NCBI RefSeq assembly: GCF_025753855.1
Contig: NZ_JAOWPT010000010.1
Coordinates: forward strand, 124,001-188,000
Direction: 5' to 3'
Origin: Mesorhizobium sp. ZC-5
GTDB taxonomy: Bacteria > Pseudomonadota > Alphaproteobacteria > Rhizobiales > Rhizobiaceae
DNA length: 64,000 bases
Shown here one piece after another: positions 7,573 to 42,566 of the stretch. The number at the start of each line of letters is the position of its first letter. Position 1 is the stretch's first letter. Both the position numbers and the translations under genes were made by a program. The notes beneath the pieces were generated by a model. It did not search any database. It saw only the letters and a list, made by a program, of their open reading frames with translations, and was not told the origin of the DNA.

Positions 7573-7923
7573 TCCCCTCCCCTTAGTAACCTGCCACCGC
7601 ATGGCGGCGGCTTTTCCTCACCGGCTGGTCCAACGGCACCCGCATGTCTGCACGTCCGTTACGCGGTCGTCCCTACCGCCTCGGGAACAGCGAAGCACCG
7701 ACCCCGGATGGTCCTGGCGGAACACGGGTGACAACCCGGCATCGCCGCATGGACTGTTGGAACCCAGGTGAGATCGCTACACAATTCCTTCGAAATTCGA
7801 TCATCAAGCCATGGCATCGGTGATCAACTTGAGTATAACATTATTTCTTATGGGATGTATGTCAAGCGTGTGCTAGGCATCATCGGAATGCAGTGTGGCA
7901 GCGGCAGCGTGCCGGGAGGAGAC
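7573..7923. promoter_or_regulatory. Divergent promoter region between tctB and the metallo-hydrolase gene
   Basis: A 351-base gap between divergently read genes. The left two thirds are GC-rich and featureless to my eye. The right third (about 7790-7875) is markedly AT-rich and holds the shared motif at 7835-7844. I see no credible coding sequence: an open frame that runs through it into the metallo-hydrolase has no ribosome site and no family similarity in its first 52 codons. Confidence 0.5.
7835..7844 (+). promoter_or_regulatory. Shared AT-rich motif ATAACATTAT, site 1
   Basis: The sequence is TGAGTATAACATTATTTC, with the ten-base core at these positions. The same core occurs on the opposite strand at 18862 and 21081, always in an intergenic upstream region. 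It could be an operator, or a conserved -10 region (rc contains TATACT). Confidence 0.45.
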
Positions 7924-8784
7924 ATGCCCTATCTCAAGGAACCGGAGCCGCTGCGCCGGAAGAGCGAGGTGGTGGTGCCTGGCATCCGGCGCATCGTCGC
8001 CAACAATCCGAGCGTGATGACCTACCATGGCACGAACACCTATCTGATCGACGACGAGCAAGGGACGACGGTGCTTGACCCGGGACCGCTCGACGAAGCG
8101 CACCTCCACGATGTCCTCGAAGCCGTCTCGGGCCGCGTCACGCGAATCCTGCTTACCCACACGCATTCTGACCATGTTGGCAACGCCGCCGCCCTCAGGC
8201 AGGCGACGGGTGCGCCGATATACTCGCACGTCATCAGTGCTGAACCGCATCGGCCGGACGTGCCGCTTTCGGCCGGTGACACCGTTGCCGGGATGACGGT
8301 GGTACACACTCCAGGCCACGCTGCCGATCATGTCTGCTTTGCTCGCGGCGATGGACTGCTCTTCAGCGGCGACCACGTGATGGGCTGGAGCAGTACCGTG
8401 GTCGGGCCACCGCACGGCAACATGAAGGACTACCTGGAAAGCCTGCGCGCCCTTCGCCAGCGTTCGGATCGCCTTTATCTGCCCGGTCATGGACCTGCCC
8501 TGCCCGATCCGCACCCCTACATCGACGATTTGCTACGGCACAGGATCGACCGTGAAACCGAGATCGTGGCCACCTTGCGCAAACGGCCGATGAGCCCGAC
8601 GGACGTCGCCCGGCACCTCTATGCAAAGCTCGACCCGACGCTCAGTCGCGCCGCGGAGAGAAATGTTCTCTCCCACCTGGACAAATTGGCGGCGGAGGGC
8701 CGCGTCGAACAAATCGGCGAACTTTGGCGAAGCGTCGAAGACGAGTGGGAAAGCGGGTCAAGTATGGAGCGGCGCGGATTTTGA
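7924..8784 (+). CDS. MBL-fold metallo-hydrolase, LACTB2-like
   Basis: A metallo-beta-lactamase-fold hydrolase of the LACTB2/glyoxalase-II-like branch, cytoplasmic, binding two zinc ions. The metal motif is H79-T-H81-S-D83-H84. Further ligands are suggested by HTPGHAADH, the SGDHVMGWSS aspartate and LPGHGP. The last 90 residues form a winged-helix-like tail (LRKRPMSPTDVARHLYAKL), as in LACTB2. The ATG at 7924 has GGGAGGAG at the right distance and starts MPYLKEPEPL; upstream codons are ignored. Twenty bases separate it from the AbrB-type gene, so it probably leads a three-gene operon with the double CoA-transferase. A thioester or lactone substrate would fit the context; that is inference. Confidence 0.88.
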   Translation: MPYLKEPEPLRRKSEVVVPGIRRIVANNPSVMTYHGTNTYLIDDEQGTTVLDPGPLDEAHLHDVLEAVSGRVTRILLTHTHSDHVGNAAALRQATGAPIYSHVISAEPHRPDVPLSAGDTVAGMTVVHTPGHAADHVCFARGDGLLFSGDHVMGWSSTVVGPPHGNMKDYLESLRALRQRSDRLYLPGHGPALPDPHPYIDDLLRHRIDRETEIVATLRKRPMSPTDVARHLYAKLDPTLSRAAERNVLSHLDKLAAEGRVEQIGELWRSVEDEWESGSSMERRGF

Positions 8785-8803
8785 TGGCAATGGGCGGGCA
8801 ATA

Positions 8804-9865
8804 GTGGGGCAGATCGTTCCAACATTGATGTCGCTGCTGATTGGTGCGTGCGGTGGCGCGATCTTTGCGTTCCTGCATGCGCCACTGCCTTGGACCTTGG
8901 GTTCCATCACGGCGTCGGCACTTGCGGCGATCCTGTCGAACCGCTGGCCGATGCCGGCTGTCATGCGCATGGTAGCGCGGCCTGTCGTCGGCGTGCTCGC
9001 CGGGTCCGCTTTCACACCGGAAGTCTTCGGCGCAATCGGGGGTTGGTGGAAGGCCCTGATCGTCCTGGCAATCTATTCGCTGATCACCAGCGTCGCTGGA
9101 TACTTCATCTTCCGACGCTACGTGCGGCTTGATCCGGTGACCAGCTATTTTGCCGCTACGCCAGGCGGTCTGGGCGAGTTCACGCTGCTCGGTGGATCGC
9201 TCGGCGGGCGTATGCCAACGATCGTTCTGATCCATGCGACCCGCATCGTGACAATCATCTTCTCCATCCCGATCATTCTGCAGATCATGCTTGGCATGCA
9301 GCCAGGTGGATTCTTGCCGCCCAGCAGCAGTCATTCGCATGAGTTGCTTGACTGGCTGCTGCTTATCGGGGCCGGACTGGTCGGCCTGCTGTTCGGCCGC
9401 TTCAAGTGGTTTCCCGGTGGCCCGATGATTGCGGCGATGTATTGCAGCGCGGTCATCCACGCGCTGGGTCTGACTGATGCTTCGCCGCCTGGCGTCATCG
9501 TCGCCTTCGTGCAGGTCCTTATCGGTTGCGTCGCGGGAGCCCGTTTCGCCGGCATCACCTGGCAGGAAGCCCGGCAGAATGCAGCCTGGGCAATGGCGTG
9601 GTCGCTCGTCTTGCTCGCATCGGCGTTTGCCCTGGCTGCCGCGACGGCGAACATGCTGGATGTGCCCTTTGAGAGCCTGCTGCTTGCCATCGCACCGGGC
9701 GGGGGTAACGAGATGATCATCGTAGCGTACGCGCTGCAAGGCGACGTCGCCTTCGTCGCGTTCTGCCAGGTGGCGCGCGTCTTCCTCGTGCTTTCACTGG
9801 CACCTGTTTTCTTCAAATATGTCGAGCGGCGCACCGCGCGCAAAATGCAGGGCAAGGAGCCATGA
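8804..9865 (+). CDS. AbrB-family membrane protein (duplicated AbrB domain, putative transporter)
   Basis: An integral membrane protein of the AbrB/'ammonia monooxygenase-like' family (PF05145 type). It has about ten hydrophobic helices in two repeated halves. Diagnostic segments are LPWTLGSITASALAAI, MRMVARPVVGVLAGSAFTP, TPGGLGEFTLLGG and, in the second half, IAPGGGNEMIIVAYAL. The two G-rich TPGG/APGGG loops at equivalent places show the internal duplication. The start is uncertain. I use GTG 8804, just past the previous stop, with GGGCGGG upstream; ATG 8828 is the alternative. The gene overlaps the CoA-transferase by ATGA. The physiological role of the family is not well established, and uptake or efflux of a pathway acid is plausible. 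Confidence 0.82.
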   Translation: MGQIVPTLMSLLIGACGGAIFAFLHAPLPWTLGSITASALAAILSNRWPMPAVMRMVARPVVGVLAGSAFTPEVFGAIGGWWKALIVLAIYSLITSVAGYFIFRRYVRLDPVTSYFAATPGGLGEFTLLGGSLGGRMPTIVLIHATRIVTIIFSIPIILQIMLGMQPGGFLPPSSSHSHELLDWLLLIGAGLVGLLFGRFKWFPGGPMIAAMYCSAVIHALGLTDASPPGVIVAFVQVLIGCVAGARFAGITWQEARQNAAWAMAWSLVLLASAFALAAATANMLDVPFESLLLAIAPGGGNEMIIVAYALQGDVAFVAFCQVARVFLVLSLAPVFFKYVERRTARKMQGKEP

Positions 9866-12072
9866 CGGAACCGAAGATACTGGACGGTGTGGTGGTCACC
9901 GAAATCGGCTCCCGGACGGGAGCCTCACTCTGTGGCTCGCTGCTTGCCCAACTCGGGGCAACCGTCATCTTCGTCGAATTGCCCAACGCGGATAGCGGAT
10001 CTGGAAAGGCCCGCCACCGGTCTCAACTTGCGGCTGGCAAGCTAAGCCTCCTGCTGCGCGACGACGCGCATGACCGCCGCCTGCTCGAAGCCGCGCTTCT
10101 GCGTAGCGACATCGTCCTCACGTCGAGTGATGCGGATCCATCGCCGCTGCATGTCGAGCCGCCCAGTGCTCCCGGCAACGTCGTCTGTGATCTCACCGCC
10201 TTCGGCGCTTCCGGTCCGATGAGCGGCCAGCCCTTCAGCGAATTGCAGATCCAGGCCCTGTCCGGCATCATGGACACTACAGGCTTCCCCGACGGTCCGC
10301 CTATCCCCAACGCGGTACCGATCGCCGATGTCCTCGCAGGCACCTATTGCACGACCGCTGTGCTGGCGGCCCATCGCGTCCGGCGGCTGCAGGGTGTCGG
10401 CCAGGCGATCGACATGGCCCTGTTCGACTGCGCGTTTTCCGCGCTCGGGTCATTTCTCTCCAGCGTGCTCACCACAGAAGAAGGCACGAAGTCGCGACTG
10501 GGCAACAGGCATCCGACCGTCGCGCCGTGGAACCTTTATCGATCGAGCGATGGCTGGGTACTCATCTGCGCAGGCAATTTGGGACAGTGGGAGCGCCTGT
10601 GTGCCCTGATGGGCCGACCCGACCTGTCAGCGACATTCATCAGCCAGGCGCAGCGTATCGAGCACATCGTTGAGATCGACCAACTGATCGAGGCGTGGAC
10701 ACAGAGGCAAACAACCGCCGAAAGCGTGCGCCTGCTGATCGATGCGACGGTCGCGTGCGGGCCTATAGCGCCAATCGAGACCTTTCCCCGCGAGGAGAAC
10801 CTCGATTACCGGCGGATGGTCCACGAGATAGAAGACACGGATTCGAGCAGGAAAGTGTTTGTTCCGGGCTCTCCCTTGCGCATGAACGTGTCGAATGGCG
10901 TTGCGCCGACCCGCATCCCGAAGCCGGATGAGGATCGGGACCGGATCGAACACCTCTTTTCCGTGCGTTCATCCTTGCCGTCTGTGCCCTGGTCGTCGAA
11001 ACCAAGGCGCCCACTCGAAGGCGTCCGCATCATCGAGATCGGGCAGTATACCACGGCGCCGCTTTGCGCTCGCCAGTTAGCTCACCTGGGAGCAGAAGTG
11101 ATCAAGGTCGAGCAACCCGGCGGCGATGAATCGCGTACCTGGGTGCCCCACCTCAACGGGCGCTCCGTGTCGTTCCGGCTGAATAATGCCGACAAGCGTA
11201 GCCTGGTGCTGGACCTTCGCAGTCCGTTCGGGATATCGGCGCTGCGCAAGCTGCTCGGGACCGCCGACATCCTTGTCGAGAACCTGAAACCCGGAACCCT
11301 GCGGAAATTCGGGCTGTCGCCCGAAGCGATCCTCGAGCTCAACCCGCGCCTCGTCTATTGTTCGATCACCGGTTTCGGCGCCGACTCGCTCTATGCGCGG
11401 CGGCCAGCCTTCGACATGGTGATCCAGGCCATGTCGGGCTTCATGTCCGCCGTCAGCGCCGGACCCGTGCCGCTGAAATCCGGCATTTCCACAGCCGACA
11501 CGATGGGTGCCGAGATGGCGATGACAGCCGTTCTGGGCGCCCTGGAATTTCGCGATCGTACCGGTATGGGGCAATATATCGATCTTTCGATGCAAGACAT
11601 CTGTGCCTGGCTGACCCAAACGGCGTGGAATGGCGCGGGGGCCGTACAACCTCCATCTGCATTGATTGCCTGCACCGACGGCTATGTGCTGCTGTCACCA
11701 GGCGAGACTGCGGGACAGACAGTTCCCCGACAAACCATCGACCCCCAATTGGCCGACGAAATGAACGTGCTGTCGCGCACCGAGGCTACTTCGCGCCTGG
11801 CTGCACTTGGCATGGACGCCGTCCCTGTCCTGAGCGTACGCGAATCGTCTCTGCTGCCCCAGACGAAACACCGCCGGCTCTGGTTTACGATGGCTGAAGC
11901 AGGCGTCGAGTGGCCTCTCCTTTCAAGTCCAATACGGCTGACAGGCACACCACCGAGGATCTCCCATCTTGCGCCGGCCGTGGACGCCGACGGAGACAGC
12001 ATCCTGCGCGAGCTCGATCTCGCGCGTCCGAGCGAACGCGACCCGGGCCCGGCCAAAGGCTTGGTGGTTTGA
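9862..12072 (+). CDS. Double-domain CaiB/BaiF (class III) CoA-transferase
   Basis: Transfers CoA between acyl groups, presumably to activate the pathway acid. The 736-aa protein is two CaiB-type domains in one chain: residues 1-350, and about 384-715 starting RRPLEGVRIIEIGQYTTAP. Each half keeps the catalytic-type Asp at the family position, D189 (DMALFDC) and D579 (DLSMQDI), so both may be active or form an internal pseudo-dimer. The first half begins with a divergent nucleotide-binding region (VVTEIGSRTGASLCGSLLAQLGA). Family members are usually about 400-aa single domains that interlock as homodimers. The start ATG overlaps the AbrB stop (ATGA). A close paralogue is encoded at 16662-18806. 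Confidence 0.92.
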   Translation: MTEPKILDGVVVTEIGSRTGASLCGSLLAQLGATVIFVELPNADSGSGKARHRSQLAAGKLSLLLRDDAHDRRLLEAALLRSDIVLTSSDADPSPLHVEPPSAPGNVVCDLTAFGASGPMSGQPFSELQIQALSGIMDTTGFPDGPPIPNAVPIADVLAGTYCTTAVLAAHRVRRLQGVGQAIDMALFDCAFSALGSFLSSVLTTEEGTKSRLGNRHPTVAPWNLYRSSDGWVLICAGNLGQWERLCALMGRPDLSATFISQAQRIEHIVEIDQLIEAWTQRQTTAESVRLLIDATVACGPIAPIETFPREENLDYRRMVHEIEDTDSSRKVFVPGSPLRMNVSNGVAPTRIPKPDEDRDRIEHLFSVRSSLPSVPWSSKPRRPLEGVRIIEIGQYTTAPLCARQLAHLGAEVIKVEQPGGDESRTWVPHLNGRSVSFRLNNADKRSLVLDLRSPFGISALRKLLGTADILVENLKPGTLRKFGLSPEAILELNPRLVYCSITGFGADSLYARRPAFDMVIQAMSGFMSAVSAGPVPLKSGISTADTMGAEMAMTAVLGALEFRDRTGMGQYIDLSMQDICAWLTQTAWNGAGAVQPPSALIACTDGYVLLSPGETAGQTVPRQTIDPQLADEMNVLSRTEATSRLAALGMDAVPVLSVRESSLLPQTKHRRLWFTMAEAGVEWPLLSSPIRLTGTPPRISHLAPAVDADGDSILRELDLARPSERDPGPAKGLVV

Positions 12073-12083
12073 GCGGGCGATGC

Positions 12084-12117
12084 AGCTTCGTATCAGCCAA
12101 GAGACTTCATCGAAGCT
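12084..12117. terminator. 7-bp inverted repeat between convergent genes
   Basis: AGCTTCG (12084-12090) pairs with CGAAGCT (12111-12117) in the 46-base gap between the plus-strand CoA-transferase and the minus-strand NUDIX gene. The stem is short, the loop is 20 bases and there is no T-run, so this is a weak candidate. Confidence 0.25.
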
Positions 12118-12118
12118 C

Positions 12119-12865
12119 CTATAACTGAGACTCGTACCGCTTTCCGTGTTTCACGTAGTGAAACGGTACCGGTGCTTCGGGATCGAGTTCCGGGTCATCG
12201 GCAAGGCGCCTCTCCAGATCGTCCAGGATGCGGCGCGTGATCGCCGGCAAGGGGCTGGCGCGCGCCTCGTCGAAGGTCAGCCAGGCCGGGGAAATCAGTT
12301 CGTCCTCCGCCACGGTCACCTCGGCGGCGACCGCATCGGCAAACACCGCAAAGAAGCGCGCATCGTATCTCCGAATGCGGCCGGGCGGCGTGATCGCGCG
12401 GGCGACAAGCCGCAGCCGCGAGAGGCTGGGCAGAACACCCATCTTCAGAAAGGCGGCCCAGTTCTCAGGGACTCGACGCCCGGACGGCGCTATTCCCTTT
12501 TCGCCGATGACGATGCCAACCTCTTCGAACGTCTCGCGAATCGCGGCCAGCGCAATCGAACGTATCGATCCGCGCGCACCGCCGACGCGCAATTTTGCCG
12601 CAACAGCCGGATGGAGTTCGTCGATCGCCGGCGCCAGGCGATCTGAAATGTCCACCCGGCCACCCGGAAATACGACCTTGTCCGGATGAAACACGTGGCG
12701 CGGTGAACGCCGCCCCATCAGCAACCGGACTCCATCGGGATCACCACGCAACACGATCAGCGTTGCCGCGTCCTTTGGCCGAAGGCTTCTTCGTCCCTTG
12801 CCGGCAACCGGTTCTTCCACCGGAGCCGATGTAGCCGGACCGGATTCTGGCGATAAAAGCTCCAT
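12119..12865 (-). CDS. NUDIX hydrolase (NUDT19-like)
   Basis: A NUDIX-fold pyrophosphohydrolase, likely acting on a CoA ester or nucleotide diphosphate. The first half of the NUDIX region reads FPGGRVDISD, and after an insertion of about 45 residues the core RETFEEVGI (REUxEExGU) follows. Such an insertion is typical of NUDT7/NUDT19-type CoA diphosphatases and related bacterial proteins. The length is 248 aa, with a hydrophilic N-terminal extension of about 30 residues. The start ATG is three bases past the stop of a predicted 44-codon minus-strand gene, and its own ribosome site is weak, suggesting translational coupling. A CoA-diphosphatase role would suit the CoA-heavy neighbourhood but is inference. 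Confidence 0.88.
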   Translation of the reverse strand: MELLSPESGPATSAPVEEPVAGKGRRSLRPKDAATLIVLRGDPDGVRLLMGRRSPRHVFHPDKVVFPGGRVDISDRLAPAIDELHPAVAAKLRVGGARGSIRSIALAAIRETFEEVGIVIGEKGIAPSGRRVPENWAAFLKMGVLPSLSRLRLVARAITPPGRIRRYDARFFAVFADAVAAEVTVAEDELISPAWLTFDEARASPLPAITRRILDDLERRLADDPELDPEAPVPFHYVKHGKRYESQL

Positions 12866-12868
12866 CTT

Positions 12869-13003
12869 CTATTGCAGCACCAGCTTGCGGGCTACGGCGA
12901 TAGACGGCGCCACGAGCGCCAATGCCGTCGCGGTAACTCCGAGACGGCAGATCAAATGCATCACCTTCATTGCAATTCCGCGCTTATTCATTTTCACATT
13001 CAT
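12869..13003 (-). CDS. Probable 44-aa hydrophobic peptide upstream of the NUDIX gene
   Basis: A short gene not obvious from length alone. It starts ATG at 13003 with TAGGA eight bases upstream, reads 44 codons, and stops TAG three bases before the NUDIX start. The peptide begins MNVKMNKRGIAMKVMHLIC, followed by a hydrophobic run (LGVTATALALVAPSIAVA) and ends RKLVLQ, so it looks like a single membrane segment or a signal-peptide-only product. It may be a real small membrane protein, or a leader that couples translation of the NUDIX gene. I know no family for it. Inner ATG codons make the exact start uncertain. Confidence 0.42.
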   Translation of the reverse strand: MNVKMNKRGIAMKVMHLICRLGVTATALALVAPSIAVARKLVLQ

Positions 13004-13121
13004 TATAATGTCCTATAGAACTCGATGGGCGTAAAGCCCGACATTTCGGAATGATGCTGAAAAATCAGAATGGAACTCGAACTTTGTTCGCGGCTCCGGC
13101 TAAGGGGGAACAAGAGAGGCC

Positions 13122-13940
13122 ATGAGGACAGCGGATGGAGGCCCGAGCGGTGCGTTCGCCGAAGTGCCGGGCGCGCGCCTCTGGTTTGTCGACACGCGAA
13201 ACGGGGACATTCCTGTTGTCTTGCTGCATGCCAACACCGGAACCAGCGCAAGCTGGCATCACCAGATCGCGGCGTTTGCCGAGGCCGGCTATCGCGTCAT
13301 CGCCTTCGACCGGCGGGGCTGGGGCAGAAGCGTCGCTGTGCCCGCCAGTGGCCCTCAACCGGGGACCATCGCGACGGATCTGGATGCACTGGCTGATCAT
13401 CTCGACCTTCCGTCGTTCCATCTGGTGGCGGTCGCCGGCGGCACGTTCGCTGCTCTCGACTATGCCGCGTGGCGACCTGGGCGCGTCCGCAGCCTCGTCG
13501 CCGCGGTCAGCATGGGAGCCGTGCAGGAACCGGAAATTCAGGACTTCGTTTCCAGAATCGAGATCCCGACATTGCGCGCGCAATCGGCCTTGTACCGTGA
13601 GGTCGGCCCCTCGTTTCGCGGCGCCGATCCGGAAGGAACACAGCGCTGGGTGGAAGTATATGAATCCGCAAAGCAGCCGGATGCAACCATCCAGCCGATG
13701 CGAACGCCTAACACTTTCGCCAAGCTGGCGACCATTTCGGCACCGACATTGGTGCTTGCCGGCGGCGCCGACCTTATCGCGCCACCTGCCCTGATGCGGC
13801 TATGGTCGGCTCACATACCCGGACACGAATGGGCCATCGTGCCTGAAGCTGGACACTCCATAGCGCAGGAAACCCCGGCACAATTCAACGAGATCGTACT
13901 CGCCTTCCTCAATAAGCACACGGCCAAGAACGGCGGTTAA
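13122..13940 (+). CDS. Alpha/beta-hydrolase-fold protein with Ala at the nucleophile position
   Basis: A 272-aa cytoplasmic alpha/beta-hydrolase-fold protein. The oxyanion segment is LLHANTGTSASWHHQ, and the cap and core are complete. The nucleophile elbow, normally GxSxGG, reads AVA105GG, so the catalytic Ser is Ala (GCC at 13434-13436). The acid (D217, LAGGADLIAPP) and the His (H245, PEAGHS) remain. RutD, as I recall its sequence, also has Ala here, so the protein may do non-hydrolytic or spontaneous-reaction-assisting chemistry, or a general-base reaction. The start ATG has GAGAGG upstream. It is followed after 66 bases by a metallo-hydrolase. A similar substitution occurs in the protein at 49183. 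Confidence 0.85.
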   Translation: MRTADGGPSGAFAEVPGARLWFVDTRNGDIPVVLLHANTGTSASWHHQIAAFAEAGYRVIAFDRRGWGRSVAVPASGPQPGTIATDLDALADHLDLPSFHLVAVAGGTFAALDYAAWRPGRVRSLVAAVSMGAVQEPEIQDFVSRIEIPTLRAQSALYREVGPSFRGADPEGTQRWVEVYESAKQPDATIQPMRTPNTFAKLATISAPTLVLAGGADLIAPPALMRLWSAHIPGHEWAIVPEAGHSIAQETPAQFNEIVLAFLNKHTAKNGG

Positions 13941-14006
13941 GGCCTTCCGAAAGCCAAGCAATTGCGCGTTCTACGATGGTAATAACAACATAATAGGAGA
14001 TTTCAC

Positions 14007-14921
14007 GTGAAGTGGTCGAGACGGATCGGCGACGCACTGGTTACCAATATAGTGGAGAGCACCGGCCCAACCCACGACCCCGCGGTTCTTTTCAAGGGGA
14101 TGATGGACGTTGATGAAATGGCGGCCGCGTTAAGCCGGCACGCGAGTTGGCTGGCGCCGCATCACTATATTCCCTCCGTGAACCGGATCGTCGTCACGTT
14201 TCAGCTTTGGGTACTGCAGATCGGCGGCAACGTTGTGATCATCGACACTGCGGTCGGCAACAGCAAGGAACGTCCCAATCCGCGCATGCACATGCTGAAC
14301 TCGCTCGTCATGACATGGCTTGAGGCGATCGGCGCCGGACCCGAGCAGGTCACCCATGTCGTCAACACGCATCTGCATACGGATCATGTCGGCTGGAACA
14401 CACGCATCATCGATGGTCTCAACGTGCCGACCTTCCCGAACGCGCGCTATCTTATGCCGCGAGCCGACTTCGACCATTTCAAAGGACGCCTCGACGCCGG
14501 CGATCGCCAACCGAGCGTCGTGTCGCTGATCGACAGCGTCCTGCCTGTCGTCGATGCCGGGCTCGTCGAATTCATCGATAAACCCTTCGAGTTGATTCCT
14601 GGGTTGTCGGTCGAGATGTCGCCTGGCCATACGCCGGGGATGATCAACCTCTATCTAACATCGAAGGGGGATCGCGGCGTCTTCTGCGCAGACAATTTCC
14701 ACACGCCCCTGCAGATCGCGGTCCCGGAACTGAATTCAGTCAACGACATCCTTGGCGATCAGGCACGTGTCTCGCGCCGGGCTTTCCTCGAGCGGGTCGC
14801 CGACAGCGATATGTTGATAATGCCGATGCATTTTGGCGCACCGCATTGCGGATACATCCGGCGTGGCGGTCCCGATGGCACCTTCTTCTTTCAACCGGAA
14901 AGGTCGCTTCAAAGCGCCTGA
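14007..14921 (+). CDS. MBL-fold metallo-hydrolase, quorum-lactonase-like
   Basis: A 304-aa metallo-beta-lactamase-fold enzyme of the branch that includes N-acyl homoserine lactonases and related esterases. The metal site H122-L-H124-T-D126-H127 is intact, with further ligands in MSPGHTPGM and CADNFHTP. The conserved end MPMHFGAPHCGYI is present. The start is GTG, supported by AGGAG seven bases upstream; the preceding 30 bases are AT-rich. It follows the alpha/beta-hydrolase gene in the same direction and converges, with a 23-base gap, on the GntR gene. It probably opens a lactone or cleaves an ester in the pathway; the substrate is unknown. Confidence 0.88.
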   Translation: MKWSRRIGDALVTNIVESTGPTHDPAVLFKGMMDVDEMAAALSRHASWLAPHHYIPSVNRIVVTFQLWVLQIGGNVVIIDTAVGNSKERPNPRMHMLNSLVMTWLEAIGAGPEQVTHVVNTHLHTDHVGWNTRIIDGLNVPTFPNARYLMPRADFDHFKGRLDAGDRQPSVVSLIDSVLPVVDAGLVEFIDKPFELIPGLSVEMSPGHTPGMINLYLTSKGDRGVFCADNFHTPLQIAVPELNSVNDILGDQARVSRRAFLERVADSDMLIMPMHFGAPHCGYIRRGGPDGTFFFQPERSLQSA

Positions 14922-14944
14922 ACGGCTGCCTCTGCCCTATTGCT

Positions 14945-15706: not shown

Positions 15707-15855
15707 GAATCATTCCATCTTCACTGCGAGTGCGTTTGGCACAAGGCTGATCGTTATAGACCCTTTTAACCGCAATACGTGGCTGTGGACTACTCTCAAA
15801 ATGGTATATCCTGATCGCCTGATCATAGCGGTTTACCCGCCTTTCCGCGCTTCTG

Positions 15856-16629: not shown

Positions 16630-16661
16630 CGAACAGCCCTCCCAATGATAGTCACCCGTGC

Positions 16662-31742: not shown

Positions 31743-31744
31743 CG

Positions 31745-31768: not shown

Positions 31769-31781
31769 GCTCAACCCTGCT

Positions 31782-32750: not shown

Positions 32751-32792
32751 CTTCCGCCTCTTCTGCTCGACTTTTCGCTAGACCCATTTGGC

Positions 32793-32803
32793 ATAACTTT
32801 TAT
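32793..32803 (+). promoter_or_regulatory. Shared AT-rich motif, site 4 (TGGCATAAC form)
   Basis: The sequence TTGGCATAACTTTTATAT lies between the divergent dehydrogenase (start 32750) and racemase-like gene (start 32894). It shares TGGCATAAC exactly with the site at 35323. It is related to the ATAACATTAT core by the run length after ATAAC. Confidence 0.4.
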
Positions 32804-32893
32804 ATCATTTGAAGGAGGATTTGGCCGGTGCAGCAAATTGACCGATCAATAGACTGCACCACCTCCACGCAAGCTACCTACAGGGGGTCTTGA

Positions 32894-33568: not shown

Positions 33569-33603
33569 TTCCGTTTGCCATGCTTGCGAACCGCCGAGCG
33601 AGC

Positions 33604-35244: not shown

Positions 35245-35322
35245 CAATGTCCCCTGAAGGTTGATCTCATCCAGACCCATAGGCGGGCCGCAATCGACAT
35301 CGGGTCTCGAGGCAATGAAACT

Positions 35323-35341
35323 ATATTTGTTATGCCATTAT
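35323..35341 (-). promoter_or_regulatory. Shared AT-rich motif, site 5 (before GMC gene)
   Basis: On the minus strand it reads ATAATGGCATAACAAATAT, 79 bases upstream of the GMC start. It shares TGGCATAAC with site 4 and ATAATG with the other sites. Confidence 0.4.
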
Positions 35342-35405
35342 AGTCAACATGCGGCTGAACGCTCCTCGTCAACGTCACGAGTCCTGACCAGCATGGGTGG
35401 CGTGA

Positions 35406-36401
35406 CTATGGGACCTTCGGTGCTTCTCGGTTCGTGGCTCTTGGCGTAGCGTCCAATCCAACCCCGATCAAATGACCGAATAGCGCATGGATCTTCTCGA
35501 TGTCCTCGACCGGCAGCGGAGGCTTCATGATGGAGGCAACATTGCTGTGAACGTGTCGAGGATTTCCCGTCCCGAACACAACCACGTTCATGCCGGCCTG
35601 ATGGCGCGCGAATCGGTAAGCGGCGGCGGCGACGGTCTCGGCGCCTCTGTCGTGGACCAGGAAGTCGAGTGGATTCTCCTTGCCATCGAGCTCCGCCGGC
35701 AATTGCCCCACCGCACAAAGCTCGCTCACCTTTGCGCGCAGCGCCTCACCGCGCGCAAAGATGTTGCGTACCGCATACATTCCCACGGCGCCCGTCTGCT
35801 CGGCTTGAAGTCGGGGGAGCAGTTCGTGGCAAGCGTTCTGATGCATCATGTGGAACGCCAGCAGCATCACCTCGAATTCGGCATGCGCAGTCGCGCGAAG
35901 CAGCAGACGATGATGAATGTCATCGCCTGACTCGGTAAGCCCAATGTGTTGGATCTTGCCGTTCTCCCTGGCGCGCAGCAGGACGGGAAGCACCACCTCA
36001 ATCAGATGATCGAAACTCTCCGGCCGAGGGGCATGCGGCTGGTAGACATCGATGTAGTCCGTCTTCAGCCGCCTCAAGGAGGCATCGATGTTCTGCGCGA
36101 TCTGGTCGGCGGAATAAAGTTCGTCTCGTCGGTGCACGCGCCCCTTGGTGGCTATGACCAGCGTGCCACGATCGCGGCCGCTTATGCCCAGGCCGACGGC
36201 TCCCTCGGTTTCATACGCCTCGGCGGTGTCGATGTAGTTGACGCCGAGATCGAGCGCGGTGCGAACGATATCGGCGGCCTCGGCTTCCGTCTTGCCATGT
36301 GACAGGCCGAGGCGGCTGAAGCCGCCGCAACCAAGCCCCGCGACACTCACTTTGAGGCCCGTCCGTCCTAGGGTCGTGTAGTCCATTCGGTCCGTTTCCA
36401 T
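35406..36401 (-). CDS. Aldo/keto reductase family oxidoreductase
   Basis: A 331-aa NADPH-dependent aldo/keto reductase (TIM barrel). Early TTLGRTGLKVSVAGLGCGGFSRLG, the catalytic-type D and Y in YIDTAEAYETEG, Lys in IATKGRV and His in YQPHAPRP fit the family tetrad. Its most likely work is reduction of a ketone or aldehyde intermediate, or the reverse. The ATG at 36401 has GGGGAAG upstream. It is 161 bases before the GMC gene on the same strand, so the two could be one unit. The shared motif is in the gap upstream (36425-36434). Confidence 0.9.
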   Translation of the reverse strand: METDRMDYTTLGRTGLKVSVAGLGCGGFSRLGLSHGKTEAEAADIVRTALDLGVNYIDTAEAYETEGAVGLGISGRDRGTLVIATKGRVHRRDELYSADQIAQNIDASLRRLKTDYIDVYQPHAPRPESFDHLIEVVLPVLLRARENGKIQHIGLTESGDDIHHRLLLRATAHAEFEVMLLAFHMMHQNACHELLPRLQAEQTGAVGMYAVRNIFARGEALRAKVSELCAVGQLPAELDGKENPLDFLVHDRGAETVAAAAYRFARHQAGMNVVVFGTGNPRHVHSNVASIMKPPLPVEDIEKIHALFGHLIGVGLDATPRATNREAPKVP

Positions 36402-36424
36402 CGCTTCCCCGAAATCAGTATAGC

Positions 36425-36434
36425 ATATTGTTAT
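36425..36434 (-). promoter_or_regulatory. Shared AT-rich motif, site 6 (divergent promoter region)
   Basis: On the minus strand it reads TCATTATAACAATATGCT, one mismatch from the core. It sits 24 bases before the aldo/keto reductase start and 153 before the divergent Bug gene. Confidence 0.45.
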
Positions 36435-36586
36435 AATGAGCTAGACAGCATGACCAGTGCTGTAGCATGGTGAACTCCACGGAGGATCCCACCACGCATC
36501 GACCGATGCGGAGGAAAGAGGTTCGTTGAACGAGCATTTCCGAGGCTGAACGGCTGGTAAGGAAGAGAATTCGTAGGGAGGACCAA

Positions 36587-37630
36587 ATGACTGGACTGAA
36601 ATCCGCACTCTCCACTCTGAGCCATTTTGCGGTATCCTGTCGGAGATTTCCCACCGGACGTCTCCGCGCCGCTTTGCTGGCGCCTGTTCTTGGTGTTGCC
36701 ATCGTGATGGCGCTGCCGACGCTGGCCGGTGCTCAGGATTACCCGACCGGGCCAATCAAGATGACTGTCGGCTACGGAGCAGGCGCGACGACCGATTTGC
36801 TGGCGCGCATCGTGGCCTCCGACATGTCGAAAATACTCGGCCAACCGATCCCCGTGGAGAACAAGCCGGGCGCGAATTCGGCGATCGCCGGGCGGCTGAT
36901 CGCCCAGGCTGACGCCGATGGCTACAACCTGCTGTTCGGCGCGTCGGCGATGGTGTCCAACATCTACGGCATGTTGGATCCAGGTTACAAGATGTCGGAC
37001 TTCGAGGTGGTGGGGGGCCATACCTTCTCTCCCTTCGTCCTCGTTATCAATTCTGCCTCCTCTGGCGCCAAGACCCTTGCCGACCTGATCGCATACGGCA
37101 AGGCAAATCCCGGCAAGCTGACATATGCATCGCTCGGCCCATCGAGCCCGGCGAATCTCGCATCCCAACGTCTTCAGGCACTCACGGGTATCGGATGGAG
37201 CGAGGTCCCATTCAAGGGCAGCGCCGATGCTGTCACGGCTCTGACGGCAGGCACTATCGACGCCTATTTCTCTGCACCTGCGTCGGTCACTTCTGTTACG
37301 GAGCGCCCTGACCTCCATATCGTTGCGACGAGCGGCAAGCAGCGTGTCAGCAGCTTTCCCGAGGTGCCTACCTTCGTGGAACTGGGCTACGAAATCACGG
37401 ATGATTTCTCGTACGGCGTCCTGGTCCGCACCGGCACACCGGAGCCCATTCTGCAGAAGCTGAGGGACGCATTCGCTGAAGCAAAGCGGTCTCCGGAGGC
37501 GCGCAGCAAGATCGAAAGCGCGGGGCTTCAGGTCTATGAAGGAACCCCCGAGCAATATGCCGCCGAGCTTGGACAGCAAGGTGTGGTCTTCGAAGCCGAC
37601 TTCAAGAAGCTTGGCATCGAACCGCAATAA
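36587..37630 (+). CDS. Bug-family periplasmic solute-binding protein
   Basis: A TctC-type periplasmic binding protein of 347 aa with a long N-terminal region (about 43 residues) before cleavage at LAGAQDYP. Bug hallmarks are VGYGAGATTDLLARIVA, NKPGANSAIAG, AQADADGYNLLFG and late FPEVPTFVELGYE. The ATG at 36587 has GGGAGG upstream. It starts a run with the zinc alcohol dehydrogenase and an SMP-30 lactonase, so its ligand is probably metabolised by them. No TctAB is adjacent. It is one of four Bug proteins in the window. Confidence 0.92.
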   Translation: MTGLKSALSTLSHFAVSCRRFPTGRLRAALLAPVLGVAIVMALPTLAGAQDYPTGPIKMTVGYGAGATTDLLARIVASDMSKILGQPIPVENKPGANSAIAGRLIAQADADGYNLLFGASAMVSNIYGMLDPGYKMSDFEVVGGHTFSPFVLVINSASSGAKTLADLIAYGKANPGKLTYASLGPSSPANLASQRLQALTGIGWSEVPFKGSADAVTALTAGTIDAYFSAPASVTSVTERPDLHIVATSGKQRVSSFPEVPTFVELGYEITDDFSYGVLVRTGTPEPILQKLRDAFAEAKRSPEARSKIESAGLQVYEGTPEQYAAELGQQGVVFEADFKKLGIEPQ

Positions 37631-37690
37631 CAATCGGCGCCGGCCGGTGCCGCAACGGACAATTTCTTCGACAACAGCAGGTAAGACAAA

Positions 37691-38737
37691 ATGCGTGGAT
37701 TGAGCTTTGGCGGCAGCAGCACGATCGAGTTTCTCGATGTTCCAGATCCGACCCCCGGCGAGGGCGAGGTGGTTCTCGAGATGAAGGCCTCTGGAATGTG
37801 CGGCAGCGACCTCAAGATGTACAAGGCGCCGCGCGGCAGCTTGACGATTGCTCGCGTGGTAATGACCAAGCCGGTTATCGCAGGTCATGAGCCCTGCGGC
37901 GTGGTCGCGGCTATCGGGCCGGGCGTCTCGCCTCGACAGGCACGGATCGGCGACCGCGTGATGGTTCATCACTACGCCGGCTGCACCGTCTGCGATCATT
38001 GCCGCTCCGGCTGGGAACAAATGTGCGATCAAGAGAATCCGGTGGTCTACGGGATTGGCGCCGATGGCGGCCACGCGCCCTACATGAAGGTGCCGGCCCG
38101 CACGCTTGTGCCGTTACCGGACGAACTCAGCTTCGAAGCCGGCGCAGCCATTTCCTGCGGCACCGGAACAGCCTTCCAAGGGCTGAAACGCGCCAGTCTC
38201 ACCGGCGACGACACCATCGCCATCTTCGGACAGGGTCCTGTCGGACTGGCTGGCACCCAGCTCGCTGCGGCCATGGGTGCCCGCGTGATAGCCCTCGATA
38301 TCACCAAGGAACGACTGGACAGGGCTAAGGAACTCGGCGCGCATCACGTCGTGAACCCAAAGGACGAAGATCCCGTTGCTGCAATCAAAGAACTCACCAG
38401 GGGCAAAGGTGTGCGCGTTGCGATGGAAGCGTCAGCTTCTCCTGATGCGCGGGCGGCTGCACTGGCCTCGCTCGCGCCGTGGGGTACGCTTCTGTTCATC
38501 GCCGGCGGTACAGCATTCAGTTGCGACAACGTGAGCACCATCACGCAAAGGCAGCTGACCTTCATCGGTTCGTGGACCTTCTCCAAGGTCGGTCAGGCCA
38601 GCTTTGCACGCTATGTCGCCGACCGTGGTATCCCAGTCGACGCCGTCTTTACCGATCGCTGGCGCCTCGAGCAGGGCGACGAGGCTTACAAGAAGTTCGC
38701 ATTGCAAAGCGGCGGCAAGGGCGTGTTCTTGATGTAA
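37691..38737 (+). CDS. Zinc-dependent alcohol dehydrogenase (MDR superfamily)
   Basis: A 348-aa medium-chain dehydrogenase. Catalytic zinc residues fit C38 (GMCGSD) and the GHEPCG motif. The structural zinc lobe reads CTVCDHCRSGWEQMC. The Rossmann motif is FGQGPVGLAGTQLA. Substrates of close relatives are sugar alcohols, threonine or other secondary alcohols. The start ATG follows AGACAAA without a strong ribosome site, 61 bases after the Bug gene. It is followed after 18 bases by a lactonase; a dehydrogenase plus lactonase pair suggests oxidation of a cyclic hemiacetal or hydroxy-acid-derived lactone. Confidence 0.92.
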   Translation: MRGLSFGGSSTIEFLDVPDPTPGEGEVVLEMKASGMCGSDLKMYKAPRGSLTIARVVMTKPVIAGHEPCGVVAAIGPGVSPRQARIGDRVMVHHYAGCTVCDHCRSGWEQMCDQENPVVYGIGADGGHAPYMKVPARTLVPLPDELSFEAGAAISCGTGTAFQGLKRASLTGDDTIAIFGQGPVGLAGTQLAAAMGARVIALDITKERLDRAKELGAHHVVNPKDEDPVAAIKELTRGKGVRVAMEASASPDARAAALASLAPWGTLLFIAGGTAFSCDNVSTITQRQLTFIGSWTFSKVGQASFARYVADRGIPVDAVFTDRWRLEQGDEAYKKFALQSGGKGVFLM

Positions 38738-38755
38738 GTCCGCAGGAGCATCGGC

Positions 38756-39667
38756 GTGCGAGTTCTTGCCTCAGGCCTCAAATTTCCCGAAGGTCCTGTT
38801 GCGCTGTCCGACGGCAGCCTGATCCTCGTCGAGATACACGCCGGCACCGTAACCCGTGTCGCCCCAGACGGTGCCGTCACCTCTATGGCCCGTCTTGGCG
38901 GTGGCCCGAATGGCGCCGCTTTCGGCCCCGACGGCGCTCTCTATGTCTGCAATCATGGCGGTTATCTGTGGACCGAAGGCCCGCGCGATGCCTCACCCGC
39001 TCGCCCTGTCACCTACACCGGCGGCCGTATCGAGCGCATCGACATTGAGACGGGCGAAATGACATTGCTCTATGTCGGATGCGGTGGGCGGCAACTCAGC
39101 GCGCCCAACGATCTGGTATTCGACCGGCACGGTGGCTTCTACTTCACCGATCTCGGCAAATCGACGCCGGACCATATCGTGCACGGCGCCGTCTATTATG
39201 CGCTGCCGGACGGCTCGAGCATCCGCGAAGTGGCATTCCCGATGCAGCGACCGAACGGTATAGGCCTGTCACCCGACGAAGCGACGCTCTATGTCGCGGA
39301 GATGCCGACCGCGCGGCTGTGGTCTTTTTCGATCGAGGAGCCTGGTGTGCTGAGGCGCGACGATTCTCATGCAGCCCCTCATGGCGGCCGCTTCCTCGGC
39401 GGGTTGGGTGGGCTGCAGAAATTCGACAGCCTGGCGTTAGAAGCCAGCGGGAATATCTGCGTGGCAACGCTCGCGAGCGGCGCCATAACCGTCGTCAGCC
39501 CCTCTGGCGAAGTCGTCAGGCAGGTAGAGACCGGCGACGCGATGACCACCAACATCTGTTTCGGTGGTGCCGGCATGCGTACCGCCTATATCACGCTCGC
39601 CGGTCGTGGCGAACTGGTCGAGATGGACTGGCCGAGCCCCGGACTCAGGCCGAACTTTTCTCGGTAG
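38756..39667 (+). CDS. SMP-30/gluconolactonase-family lactonase
   Basis: A 303-aa beta-propeller lactonase-type protein. LKFPEGPVALSDGSLILVEI, NDLVFDRHGGFYFTD and PNGIGLSPDEATLYVAE are family segments holding the metal residues (E, N, D). It differs clearly from the protein at 28458, so the window holds two SMP-30 branches. The start is GTG with AGGAG upstream. It follows the zinc alcohol dehydrogenase in a dehydrogenase-lactonase pair. Confidence 0.9.
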   Translation: MRVLASGLKFPEGPVALSDGSLILVEIHAGTVTRVAPDGAVTSMARLGGGPNGAAFGPDGALYVCNHGGYLWTEGPRDASPARPVTYTGGRIERIDIETGEMTLLYVGCGGRQLSAPNDLVFDRHGGFYFTDLGKSTPDHIVHGAVYYALPDGSSIREVAFPMQRPNGIGLSPDEATLYVAEMPTARLWSFSIEEPGVLRRDDSHAAPHGGRFLGGLGGLQKFDSLALEASGNICVATLASGAITVVSPSGEVVRQVETGDAMTTNICFGGAGMRTAYITLAGRGELVEMDWPSPGLRPNFSR

Positions 39668-39723
39668 CCAAGCCGCCCTGATAACCAAGGCGCACGACGC
39701 GATTGTTAATTGACCTCTTAATA

Positions 39724-39737
39724 TGTCATGACATTAT
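39724..39737 (+). promoter_or_regulatory. Palindrome plus shared-motif variant before the Bug gene
   Basis: TGTCATGACA (39724-39733) is a perfect ten-base palindrome, overlapping ATGACATTAT (39728-39737), a variant of the shared core. It lies 32 bases before the Bug gene start. The TATAGTATAATAA stretch right after could hold a -10 region. Confidence 0.45.
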
Positions 39738-39768
39738 AGTATAATAAGAAAAACAACGGGAGGACGTA

Positions 39769-40740
39769 ATGGTACTGCGAGCGCTTGCATCGTTTACTCT
39801 TCTTGTAGCCCTGCTGGCCATGCAAGGCGCGGCCGTGGCACAAGAATGGCCCGACCGTCCGGTCACGGTCATCGTGCCGGTCAACGCCGGCGGTGGCGCG
39901 GACCCGCTGGCCCGTGTGATCTTCGACGGGTTAAGCAAGAAGTTCGGCCAGAATTTCGTACTCGATTTCCGCCCCGGCGCGTCGATGATGCTCGGTGGCA
40001 ACGTTGTCGCAAAAGCCGATCCCGACGGCTACACCATCATGTTCTCCGCCAAAACCGCGATCGTTAACGCGTCGCTGAACGCGAACGTCCCTTATGACCC
40101 GGTCAAGGACCTGGTGCCGGTGGTGCGCACAGCGGGAGCGCCTAACTTCGTCACCGCCAACGCCGCTGTGCCCTATAATAACTTCGACGAGTTCATCGCC
40201 TACGCGGTGGCAAATCCGGGCAAGGTAAACGGTGCCGTCTCAGGCCTCGGCGGTGGTGCCCACGCGGCTTTGGCCGTAATCCAGTCCAAGACCGGTATCC
40301 AGGTCAATCTCGTTCCCTATGCCGGTTCCGGTGGAATCCTGCCCGACCTGATGGGCGGCGCCGTCGACATTACCTTCGGGTTCTCGACAGCCTACGCGTC
40401 AGGCGTCGAGGCCGGCAAACTCAAATACCTGGCGGTGATGGCACCCGAACGTCTCCCGCTGATGCCGGATATCCCGTCGACCGACGAGAGCAGCCACAAG
40501 GGCCTCTACAGCGACAGTTGGTACCTGATCTCGGTACCGAAGGAGACGCCGCGCGCGATCCTCGAAAAACTGAACGCGGCAGTGATTGAGGTGATGAAGA
40601 CGCCCGAAGCCGAAAAGAAGATCAACGATCTCGGTTTGATCGTAATCGGTGACACACCGGAGCAAGCCGCCAAAATCATCTCGGAGGAAATTGTCGAGAT
40701 GAAAGGCTGGGTCGATGCGGGGCACTTCCAGGTGAACTGA
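39769..40740 (+). CDS. Bug-family periplasmic solute-binding protein
   Basis: A TctC-type binding protein of 323 aa. The signal peptide ends AAVAQEWP, matching the Bug cleavage pattern. VPVNAGGGADPLARVIF, LDFRPGASMMLGGNVVA, ADPDGYTIMF and MPDIPSTDESSHKG follow. The start ATG has GGGAGG upstream. It is followed after 106 bases by a PcaC-like gene and faces the convergent Bug gene at 41376. The proteins at 39769 and 41376 share the DESSxKG loop, so they may be recent paralogues. Confidence 0.93.
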   Translation: MVLRALASFTLLVALLAMQGAAVAQEWPDRPVTVIVPVNAGGGADPLARVIFDGLSKKFGQNFVLDFRPGASMMLGGNVVAKADPDGYTIMFSAKTAIVNASLNANVPYDPVKDLVPVVRTAGAPNFVTANAAVPYNNFDEFIAYAVANPGKVNGAVSGLGGGAHAALAVIQSKTGIQVNLVPYAGSGGILPDLMGGAVDITFGFSTAYASGVEAGKLKYLAVMAPERLPLMPDIPSTDESSHKGLYSDSWYLISVPKETPRAILEKLNAAVIEVMKTPEAEKKINDLGLIVIGDTPEQAAKIISEEIVEMKGWVDAGHFQVN

Positions 40741-40846
40741 ACGCCATCCAGCAAATGCGAAACAGAGCGGGCATCAGGATGCGCGCGCTTGCAAAGCCTG
40801 TCGAGATCGACGGGACCACACTTAGTTAGCCAGAGGAAATACGACC

Positions 40847-41236
40847 ATGGATCACGAACAGAAGCTTGCGCTGGGCAAACAGATCAGAACCGAGGTTCTC
40901 GGCCAGGCTTATGTCAGCCAGCCAGGCCCGGCCCCTTCGAACTTCAAGAAGGCGTTCCAGGAATTCACCGTCGAGCATTGCTGGGGGAATGTCTGGGTCC
41001 GCCCTGGACTGGAGCGCAAGACGCGGAGCATGCTCAACCTAGCGATGCTGGCCGCGATGGCGCGATGGCATGAATTCGAGATCCATGTCCGCGGTGCCCT
41101 GAACAATGGCGTGACGGAAGACGAAATCATCGAGGTGGTGTTGCAGGCCGGCGTCTACGCCGGCGTTCCGATCGCGTCGGAAGGAATGAAGGTCGCCGAA
41201 CGCGCCGCCACCGCATGGCGTGAAGAAGCAAAGTAA
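40847..41236 (+). CDS. Carboxymuconolactone decarboxylase family protein (PcaC-like)
   Basis: A 129-aa, all-helical protein of the PcaC type, small and cytoplasmic, usually hexameric. Segments match 4-carboxymuconolactone decarboxylase: IRTEVLGQAYV, WGNVWVRPGLERKTRSMLNLAML and HVRGALNNGVTEDEIIEV. The full length and end fit PcaC rather than the AhpD peroxidase branch, since no CxxC is present. It may decarboxylate carboxymuconolactone from protocatechuate or a pathway lactone. The other protocatechuate genes (pcaGH, pcaB, pcaD) are absent here. The start ATG has AGAGG upstream. A bidirectional terminator follows. Confidence 0.9.
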   Translation: MDHEQKLALGKQIRTEVLGQAYVSQPGPAPSNFKKAFQEFTVEHCWGNVWVRPGLERKTRSMLNLAMLAAMARWHEFEIHVRGALNNGVTEDEIIEVVLQAGVYAGVPIASEGMKVAERAATAWREEAK

Positions 41237-41270
41237 AAACGCGACCAGTCAGCCGATCGCATAAAGAAAA

Positions 41271-41300
41271 GGCGCCGCATGCAAAATTGCGGCGCCTTTT
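41271..41300. terminator. Bidirectional intrinsic terminator
   Basis: GGCGCCGCA (41271-41279) and TGCGGCGCC (41288-41296) form a 9-bp stem with an 8-base loop. It has TTTT after it on the plus strand and AAAGAAAA before it, which reads as TTTTCTTT on the minus strand. It lies between the convergent PcaC-like and Bug genes and can serve both. Confidence 0.85.
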
Positions 41301-41326
41301 GTGCTCACCAGTTCGTCCCTGGACCT

Positions 41327-41361
41327 GCAAGCGAGGACCGGCACCGCCGGTCCTCGCTTGC
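41327..41361 (-). terminator. 16-bp perfect hairpin 3' of the minus-strand Bug gene
   Basis: A 16-base stem with a 3-base loop (41343-41345), made of 41327-41342 and 41346-41361, lies 14 bases past the Bug gene stop. There is no T-run on either strand. It could be a terminator-type stem or a 3' end protector. Confidence 0.55.
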
Positions 41362-41375
41362 CCTTGGGAGGGAGC

Positions 41376-42362
41376 CTATTCAAGCTTGAAGACGCCGGCG
41401 TCGACCAGTTTCTTCATGTTCTCGACATCGGCCTTGATGAGGTTGGCTGCGTCTTCGGGAGACCCGATCGTCACCGTATAGCCGAGTTCGTTGATCTTCT
41501 TGGCGATCTCGGGCTTGGCCACGCTCACCCGCAGTTCGGCGTTCATCTTGTCGATGATTTCGCGCGGCGTGCCCTTCGGCGCGAGCGCCATGAACCAATT
41601 GCCGCGATAGACGCCCTTGTACGAACTTTCGTCGGTAGCCGGTACATCGGGCATCAGCGGATCCCGCTTGTCCGACATTGCGGCGATGTATTTCAGCTTG
41701 CCGCCATTGACGCCCGGCATGAAACCCGCCGCGAAGCCGAAGCCGATATCGACGACGCCGCTCATCAGGTCCGCCTGCTGCGCGCCGGAACCCGTGTAAG
41801 GAACGACGTTGAACTCAACGCCTGTCATGTATTGGACAGTGGTGACGGCGAGGTGGCTGTTGCCGCCAACGCCGGAAAATGCGGCGTTGACCTTACCGGG
41901 GTTTGCCTTCGCGTAGTCGATCAATTCCTGGAACGTGCTGAAAGGCGTGTTGACATTCGCCGTCAGGAAGGTTGGCGAGTCTGTGACCTGCGCAACCGCA
42001 ACGATGTCGGTCTTCGGATCATACGCCACGTTGGGCATGAAATTGGCGTTCACTGCCGGCGCACCGGACGTGAAAAGCATAGTGTAGCCGTCCGGGTCCG
42101 ATTTCGCGGCGGTGTTCGCTCCAATGGTGCCCGCGGCTCCAGGCCGGAAATCGAGGACGAAAGGCTGTCCCAGCCGCTTGCTCATGTCGTCAAAGATGAG
42201 CCGAGCGAGCGGGTCGGTACCGCCGCCTGCGGCCCACGGAACGATCACGATGACGGATCGGCTTGGCCAATCCGTTTGAGCATTCGCCGCATTTGTGGTG
42301 ATGCCGGCCAGAAGGCCTAGGCCGATTAAGGTCGCTTTGAAAAGGCTGCTTCGTAGTTTCAA
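41376..42362 (-). CDS. Bug-family periplasmic solute-binding protein
   Basis: A TctC-type binding protein of 328 aa. The signal peptide ends NAANAQTDWP. VIVPWAAGGGTDPLARLIF, VLDFRPGAAGTIGANTA, DPDGYTMLFTSGAPAV and MPDVPATDESSYKG are diagnostic. The start ATG has GGGAGGATAAATTG-type spacing. It stands alone on the minus strand, divergent from the CoxL-like gene (gap 42363-42605, with palindromic sites). The ligand is unknown, and the nearest TctAB (45651) lies on the same strand upstream, so it may serve that pump. Confidence 0.93.
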   Translation of the reverse strand: MKLRSSLFKATLIGLGLLAGITTNAANAQTDWPSRSVIVIVPWAAGGGTDPLARLIFDDMSKRLGQPFVLDFRPGAAGTIGANTAAKSDPDGYTMLFTSGAPAVNANFMPNVAYDPKTDIVAVAQVTDSPTFLTANVNTPFSTFQELIDYAKANPGKVNAAFSGVGGNSHLAVTTVQYMTGVEFNVVPYTGSGAQQADLMSGVVDIGFGFAAGFMPGVNGGKLKYIAAMSDKRDPLMPDVPATDESSYKGVYRGNWFMALAPKGTPREIIDKMNAELRVSVAKPEIAKKINELGYTVTIGSPEDAANLIKADVENMKKLVDAGVFKLE

Positions 42363-42537
42363 TTTATCCTCCCACTTCAGACTTTTTATCAGGTGACGAT
42401 TGCAAGCCTTGTCTTCCCACGTCAGTCAACGTGCGGATGCGGAGCGCGGCGAGAATATTCGCCGACGCTGACCCAAGAATGGCGCATTTGCAGGGGCATG
42501 CAGTTGCCAAATGTGTGGAAGGCAATCGTCAAAGATT

Positions 42538-42566
42538 ATAATGTCATTTCTTTCTATGACATGTCA
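42538..42566. promoter_or_regulatory. Shared-motif variant plus TGACATGTCA palindrome, divergent promoter region
   Basis: The minus strand of 42538-42547 reads ATGACATTAT, as at 39728. Ten bases on, TGACATGTCA (42557-42566) is a perfect palindrome. Three to four TGTCA/TGACA half-sites within 35 bases suggest a dimeric regulator. The gap separates the Bug gene (minus) from the CoxL-like gene (plus). Confidence 0.45.

Follow-up and report, generated by a model that had tools for sequence, protein, structure and literature searches.

A 35-kb catabolic cluster of Mesorhizobium sp. ZC-5 and the predicted operator of its UTRA-domain GntR regulator

A gene cluster with a recurrent AT-rich motif

The window analysed here is a stretch of 64 kb (C10:124001-188000) from the genome of Mesorhizobium sp. 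ZC-5, which comprises 6.34 Mb in 68 contigs; the window's own contig is 222 kb long. It contains a cluster of about 35 kb whose intergenic gaps share an AT-rich motif, and this motif and its likely regulator, a GntR-type protein, are the subject of this work. The cluster encodes TctA, TctB, TctC, two fused double class-III CoA-transferases, an acyl-CoA dehydrogenase, enoyl-CoA hydratases, thiolase-like and OB-fold proteins, SMP-30-like proteins, MmgE/PrpD, a racemase-like protein, a GMC oxidoreductase, an aldo/keto reductase, an alcohol dehydrogenase, a carboxymuconolactone-decarboxylase-like protein and a CoxL-like protein. The family matches were too general to name a substrate of the cluster. 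The GntR gene, whose product is the proposed repressor, lies at 14945-15706 on the minus strand. Both Pfam domains scored above their cut-offs, an N-terminal GntR-type helix-turn-helix (PF00392, 65.4 bits against 27) followed by UTRA (PF07702, 66.6 bits against 23.8), and the recognition helix reads SRITVRRA. By its domains the protein belongs to the HutC subfamily, and none of the 21 NCBIfam models listed was matched above its cut-off (the best was HutC TIGR02018, 101.9 bits against 220). It is the sole Pfam-detected regulator within the cluster; the others detected in the window are a LysR at 56458 and an FCD-type GntR at 61153-61872.

A sequence-only reading of this DNA had quoted nine sites of the motif and proposed that they form a single regulon. 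All nine sequences are present, within a base or two of where it placed them, and all are intergenic by the gene list made in this analysis. The three cores that it called identical ten-mers are indeed identical, and they are 11-mers: TATAACATTAT occurs at 7834 (plus), 18862 (minus) and 21081 (minus). The other sites contain TATAACAATAT at 36425 (minus), CATAAC at 32792 (plus) and 35329 (minus), ATGACATTAT at 39728 (plus) and 42538 (minus), and AGGACATTAT at 13005 (minus).

The motif is real and beyond chance, as that reading had claimed. TATAACATTAT has three matches in the whole genome, all of them in the window and within 13 kb, and the reversed pattern has none. When one mismatch was allowed, ATAACATTAT gave 45 matches genome-wide (reversed control 31), with six in the window and none elsewhere on its contig; ATAATGKYATA gave 37 (control 40), nine of them in the cluster, including four of the five perfect ones; and ATAWTGDYATAHC gave 28 (control 22), eight of them in the cluster, where all three perfect ones lie. 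The 20 matches of ATAWTGDYATAHC outside the cluster are no more than the control yields. A perfect match of ATAATGGCATA at C9:61929, called intergenic by a crude gene caller, was rejected after it was read as lying inside a permease frame. The motif is also not equally frequent in unrelated gaps, being found in 6 of 26 gaps of the window versus 11 of 375 background gaps, a comparison biased against the window by the choice of background (16 of its 37 stretches hold a ATAACATTAT match with at most one mismatch, mostly by deliberate choice).

Blind motif discovery gave the same result. The 17 gaps that fall in the stretch from 7.5 to 43 kb were subjected to expectation-maximisation with motif widths of 10, 12, 14 and 18, and at each width the best motif was that of the sequence-only reading. 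At width 12 its score was 69.3, above all 200 control sets (best 51.9). The control scores had a mean of 36.9, a standard deviation of 3.2 and a maximum of 46.3 for 100 sets of gaps of this genome, matched in length, and a mean of 39.7, a standard deviation of 3.8 and a maximum of 51.9 for 100 dinucleotide shuffles.

The palindrome before distant GntR genes and a matrix free of window sequence

The same motif was found upstream of other GntR genes. Among 33 GntR loci read, seven, the window's included, carry it with at most one mismatch in the interval from -300 to +20. A profile search yielded 29 foreign GntR loci, three of which (L106, L120 and L126) repeat genes of the 33-locus set. With at most one mismatch, the motif stands upstream of the regulator in 11 of the 29, and these are the 11 top-scoring loci of the search. 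Four of them (L108-L111) are near-copies. The GntRs of these 11 have the helix SRITAKRA or SRITARRA. The other 18 loci lack the motif at one mismatch or fewer; in one of these, L118, there is hardly any upstream DNA. The L116 promoter reads TGGTATAACATTATAACA and has GGTATAACATTAT in common with the window site at 18862. In foreign operators such as TGGTATATTGATATACCA, ten bases separate GT and AC, and the window sites are in the same frame.

Other palindromes were seen in the same collection. Eleven loci whose GntR helix reads SRVTIRRA (L123-L133) carry ATTGTATCATAG upstream instead, which is a candidate operator of that group. The upstream regions of L014, L020, L021 and L029 contain TCTTATATAAGA-type palindromes, similar to the SdhR operator as quoted in PMC4494728. 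When the upstream regions of distant GntR genes were searched blindly without sorting, several operator types were mixed and no useful matrix resulted.

A 14-base matrix was trained on 15 foreign upstream regions, cut at 48% or more identity to the L008 GntR, and contained no window sequence; the motif-less L121 and L122 were kept and the motif-bearing L016 was left out. Its top seven matches in the window were 21081, 18862, 7831, 35328, 36425, 39724 and 15802, all scoring at least 13.05. These are six of the quoted sites and a stretch of DNA upstream of the UTRA-GntR gene of the window, a result which supports the proposal that this HutC-type protein is the likely regulator. Among the remaining quoted sites, 42538 is weak, and 13005 and 32793 fail. 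Seven window positions reach 13.05, the score of the seventh window match, versus two in 714,595 background bases of the same genome (Fisher, 7.9e-7). The counts were 8 versus 14 at a threshold of 11 (p 2.3e-4) and 10 versus 20 at 9.5 (p 9e-5). When the columns of the matrix were permuted 200 times, no permuted version brought seven positions of the window above the third-best score of the background; four was the most that any of them brought. After the top seven came 42557 (11.49), 2898 inside an open frame (10.51) and 42538 (9.62). At the same time, the proteins of this genome most like the L116 GntR were the window GntR (E 2.1e-26), C5:436016 (3.0e-23) and C4:74220 (4.3e-21). Since a foreign-trained matrix ranks the seven window sites on top and the window GntR is the best match to the L116 protein, one predicted UTRA-GntR regulon of seven to eight sites is well supported in silico.

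The predicted operators and the conservation of one of them in a relative

The best predicted operator in the window (21077-21094, plus; matrix score 22.87, unequalled in the background bases) lies upstream of the genes at 21139-31742, which encode thiolase-like proteins, CoA-transferases, SMP-30 and MmgE/PrpD. The next (18858-18875, plus; 17.63) lies between a double CoA-transferase gene (minus) and the acyl-CoA dehydrogenase gene (plus). The putative operator at 7831-7848 (minus; 15.56), with the core ATAATGTTATA and a perfect 11-mer, separates TctB of the TctCAB genes (minus) from a metallo-hydrolase gene (plus). Upstream of the GMC oxidoreductase gene (minus), the site that had been quoted at 35323 appears to be an operator, although in another register: the blind search put a better core, TATAATGGCATA, at 35331-35342 on the minus strand, within a predicted operator at 35328-35345 (minus; 15.44). 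Two further predicted operators are found at 36421-36438 (plus; 13.87), between the aldo/keto reductase gene (minus) and the TctC, alcohol dehydrogenase and SMP30 genes (plus), and at 39724-39741 (minus; 13.75), upstream of TctC and the carboxymuconolactone-decarboxylase-like gene (plus). The candidate upstream of the GntR gene itself, ATCAGGATATACCA at 15802-15819 (minus; 13.05), was also returned by the blind search (15797). A weaker, probable double site occupies 42534-42574 (no strand assigned) between TctC (minus) and the CoxL-like gene (plus), where the two matrix matches noted above, at 42538 and 42557, fall.

Two quoted sites are unsupported as operators. The site at 13004-13015 (plus) appeared in the blind search of the window and has no match of 9.5 or more to the foreign matrix. 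The site at 32784-32812 (plus) reaches 7.79 at 32798, a level expected 3.85 times per 64 kb; TGGCATAAC is common to it and to 35329-35337.

Promoter-like sequences were searched for with a simple consensus, a scan in which AT-rich sites by themselves favour matches. There were 4 in 7500-22300 versus 3.6 in shuffles, which is no excess, and 9 in 32600-42700 versus 2.9. TTGGCA-17-TATGAT (18887-18859, minus) overlaps the 18858 operator, TTGACT-16-TATAGT (35347-35320, minus) that at 35328, TTGACC-16-CATTAT and TTAATA-16-TATAAT (39710-39745, plus) that at 39724, and a further promoter-like sequence (42567-42538, minus) the site at 42538. In these overlapping sites the palindrome covers the spacer or the -10 box.

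An ortholog of the window GntR (74% identity) was found in one relative, on a contig of a Rhizobiaceae metagenome-assembled genome (L034, that is G069:C136). This is one of 394 other genomes of the family, and none of 397 others drawn from the phylum had it; in plasmid records, GntR proteins were found only below 60% identity. G069 is syntenic with the window at 16673-19187 (L060) and 22545-32738 (L077). In the gap between the double CoA-transferase and acyl-CoA dehydrogenase genes, the 18 bases AGATAGGTATAACATTAT of the 18858 operator are unchanged between the two genomes and a second block, CACCGTCAAGA, is common to both, while the surrounding DNA has drifted. The sole exact match of ATAACATTAT in G069 is in this gap; at one mismatch or fewer there are 4 matches versus 13 in the control. 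A match of ATAACAATAT in contig C294 of G069 was discarded, as it lies inside an open frame. In L035 and L036, which are Erythrobacter relatives, the GntR gene lacks an upstream site.

In G069 (L034:650-3134) the GntR gene comes after genes of SMP-30-like, carboxymuconolactone-decarboxylase-like and dehydratase-like kinds that share its strand; the first two of these gene kinds are also present in the window cluster. The fused double class-III CoA-transferases of the window lie at 9862-12072 (plus) and 16662-18806 (minus), and are about 55% alike across the two genomes compared. Upstream of the cluster, a gene for an AP-endonuclease-2/HPPD fusion (31-1923) lies near shikimate-dehydrogenase-like and TRAP transporter genes (L041:11578-19576), and this region perhaps belongs to a quinate/shikimate pathway.

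Regulator, rival explanations and likeness to known HutC-type systems

What was computed directly is that the motif exists, that it clusters, that one gap conserves it and that it also precedes related GntR genes. From these results we consider it quite likely that the UTRA-domain GntR (14945-15706) uses the sites as its operators. Such an operator would be an 18-base inverted repeat close to TGRTATAA-CA-TTATAYCA. A GntR dimer bound to it, lying over the -35 and -10 boxes or between them, would block RNA polymerase, so that at least seven promoter regions would be shut off, namely its own and those of the transport, CoA-transferase, acyl-CoA dehydrogenase, thiolase, oxidoreductase and TctC operons. 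An intermediate of the pathway, probably a carboxylic acid or a derivative, may bind the UTRA domain and release the GntR. That the genes serve one pathway, with one shared substrate, is what we infer from co-regulation and gene content.

Several results weigh against this assignment. The main weakness is phylogenetic. In the tree the motif-bearing foreign GntRs group together, the motif being present in 14 of the 17 members of their clade; outside this clade, on a branch (support 84/92) with two long rows, are the window GntR and its ortholog, and the L123-L133 group is nearer to the clade than they are. The operator is therefore shared with neighbours of the window GntR, not within a proven clade of its own. 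The window GntR has a site at its own gene as clade members do, which is the lowest-scoring of the top seven, and the G069 ortholog gene has no upstream operator site. The training set of the matrix was fixed after the motif results on foreign promoters were known. Two 18-base matrices performed more poorly: the sites were mixed with a match at 2823-2826 (in the same frame as 2898) and 35328 ranked low, while 15802 was not among the best 16 of the palindromic one. The lead of the window GntR over C5:436016 in likeness to the L116 GntR is modest. Furthermore, 12 foreign regions of 11-20 kb, all of them training loci of the matrix, held no window-like cluster of sites around the GntR gene. In 11 of them a score of 11 or more is reached only by the site at the regulator, and L147 has four such sites; single distant matches fall at TctC, TctA, GMC, CoxL and 3-hydroxyisobutyrate-dehydrogenase-like genes.

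It is unlikely that the sites, as real operators, are bound by another regulator, whether C5:436016 (a GntR homologue), one of the FCD-type GntRs (61153-61872 or L042:7480-8226) or some unlinked protein. The small gap in E-value and the clade position just described would fit such a regulator, as would ACATAATGTTATGT at C5:432053, about 4 kb from the C5:436016 homologue, and the FCD-GntRs in and near the window. However, the window GntR lies inside the cluster, has the best score and carries a site upstream of its own gene, the single relative found with its ortholog also retains the motif, and sites of this class were seen before UTRA-type and not FCD-type genes, the FCD genes not having been searched. 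Still less can be said for the view that sigma-70 promoters, AT-rich and with TATAAT-like -10 boxes, produce the motif incidentally in GC-rich DNA and that its common letters carry no meaning, which we regard as very improbable. Many of the sites do contain TATAAC or TATAAT, and sites overlap 8 of the 9 promoter-like sequences in 32600-42700 and 1 of the 4 in 7500-22300; yet neither gap sets of the same genome nor dinucleotide shuffles (at most 46.3 and 51.9) approached 69.3, the 11-mer is found in the cluster only, and an 18-base block is conserved in G069.

It is also doubtful that all nine quoted sites, 13005 and 32793 included, are operators. Every one of them lies in a gap, and 13004 and 32784/32801 were picked by the blind search; but the independent matrix stays below 9.5 at the former and scores a level expected several times per 64 kb at the latter. 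The G069 stretch syntenic with the 32793 gap (L077) has no such site at the dehydrogenase end, but it carries other genes on the far side. Taken together, the results support the sequence-only reading in its core, a real operator before several operons with the GntR as the most likely regulator, and correct its details: two of its nine sites are unsupported, one is weak and one was out of register. With the site before the GntR gene, the predicted operators number seven to eight.

The ACATAATGTTATGT match at C5:432053 (L052:12053) lies upstream of a TctC-like gene (12358-13350, by reading), and the GntR homologue there occupies L052:16001-16762 on the minus strand. This locus is possibly a second system of the same kind.

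With the GntR as the predicted regulator, some 25-30 genes over 35 kb are tied into one testable unit with a named regulator, including transport binding proteins, CoA-transferases, beta-oxidation-like enzymes, lactonases and oxidoreductases. Its substrate could thus be sought through relief of repression at one promoter. GntR proteins from several genera in the order are likewise predicted to have a specific operator, whose spacing differs from that of the usual HutC operator. In the simplest history, the operator of a self-controlling repressor would have come to serve many operons of a catabolic island. It is an even call whether the window GntR represents a HutC-type branch with the operator TGRTATAW-N2-WTATAYCA, mostly at one self-controlling site, which here spread to about eight operons in 35 kb and made the repressor master of the island.

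Known HutC-type proteins provide a frame for this prediction. NagR/YvoA, DasR, PhnF and HutC combine, like the window GntR, a winged helix with UTRA, and have a palindromic operator over promoters; the solved chains of DasR and YvoA are similar to the window GntR and rank after an unnamed putative regulator, 2ra5. According to PMC4494728, most but not all members bind NyGTMTAKACNy, in which GT and AC are four bases apart, and the exceptions include NagQ and FarR, both with direct repeats, and SdhR, with an extended palindrome. The window sites do not have this spacing: as at L007, GT and AC are ten apart with a CA/TG centre. The window GntR would join NagQ, FarR and SdhR as a HutC-type protein with a non-consensus operator, although all three differ from it in operator sequence and symmetry; SdhR-like letters stand before the L014, L020, L021 and L029 GntR genes and not at the window sites. 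No description of this operator class was recognised in the literature searched, a weak negative since sites often appear in figures only. A close parallel is given by the SRITAKRA-helix GntRs (L106-L114, L116 and L117), which have the same operator core upstream of the regulator gene as the window. They typically have one site, at the regulator, whereas the window has seven or more over 35 kb.

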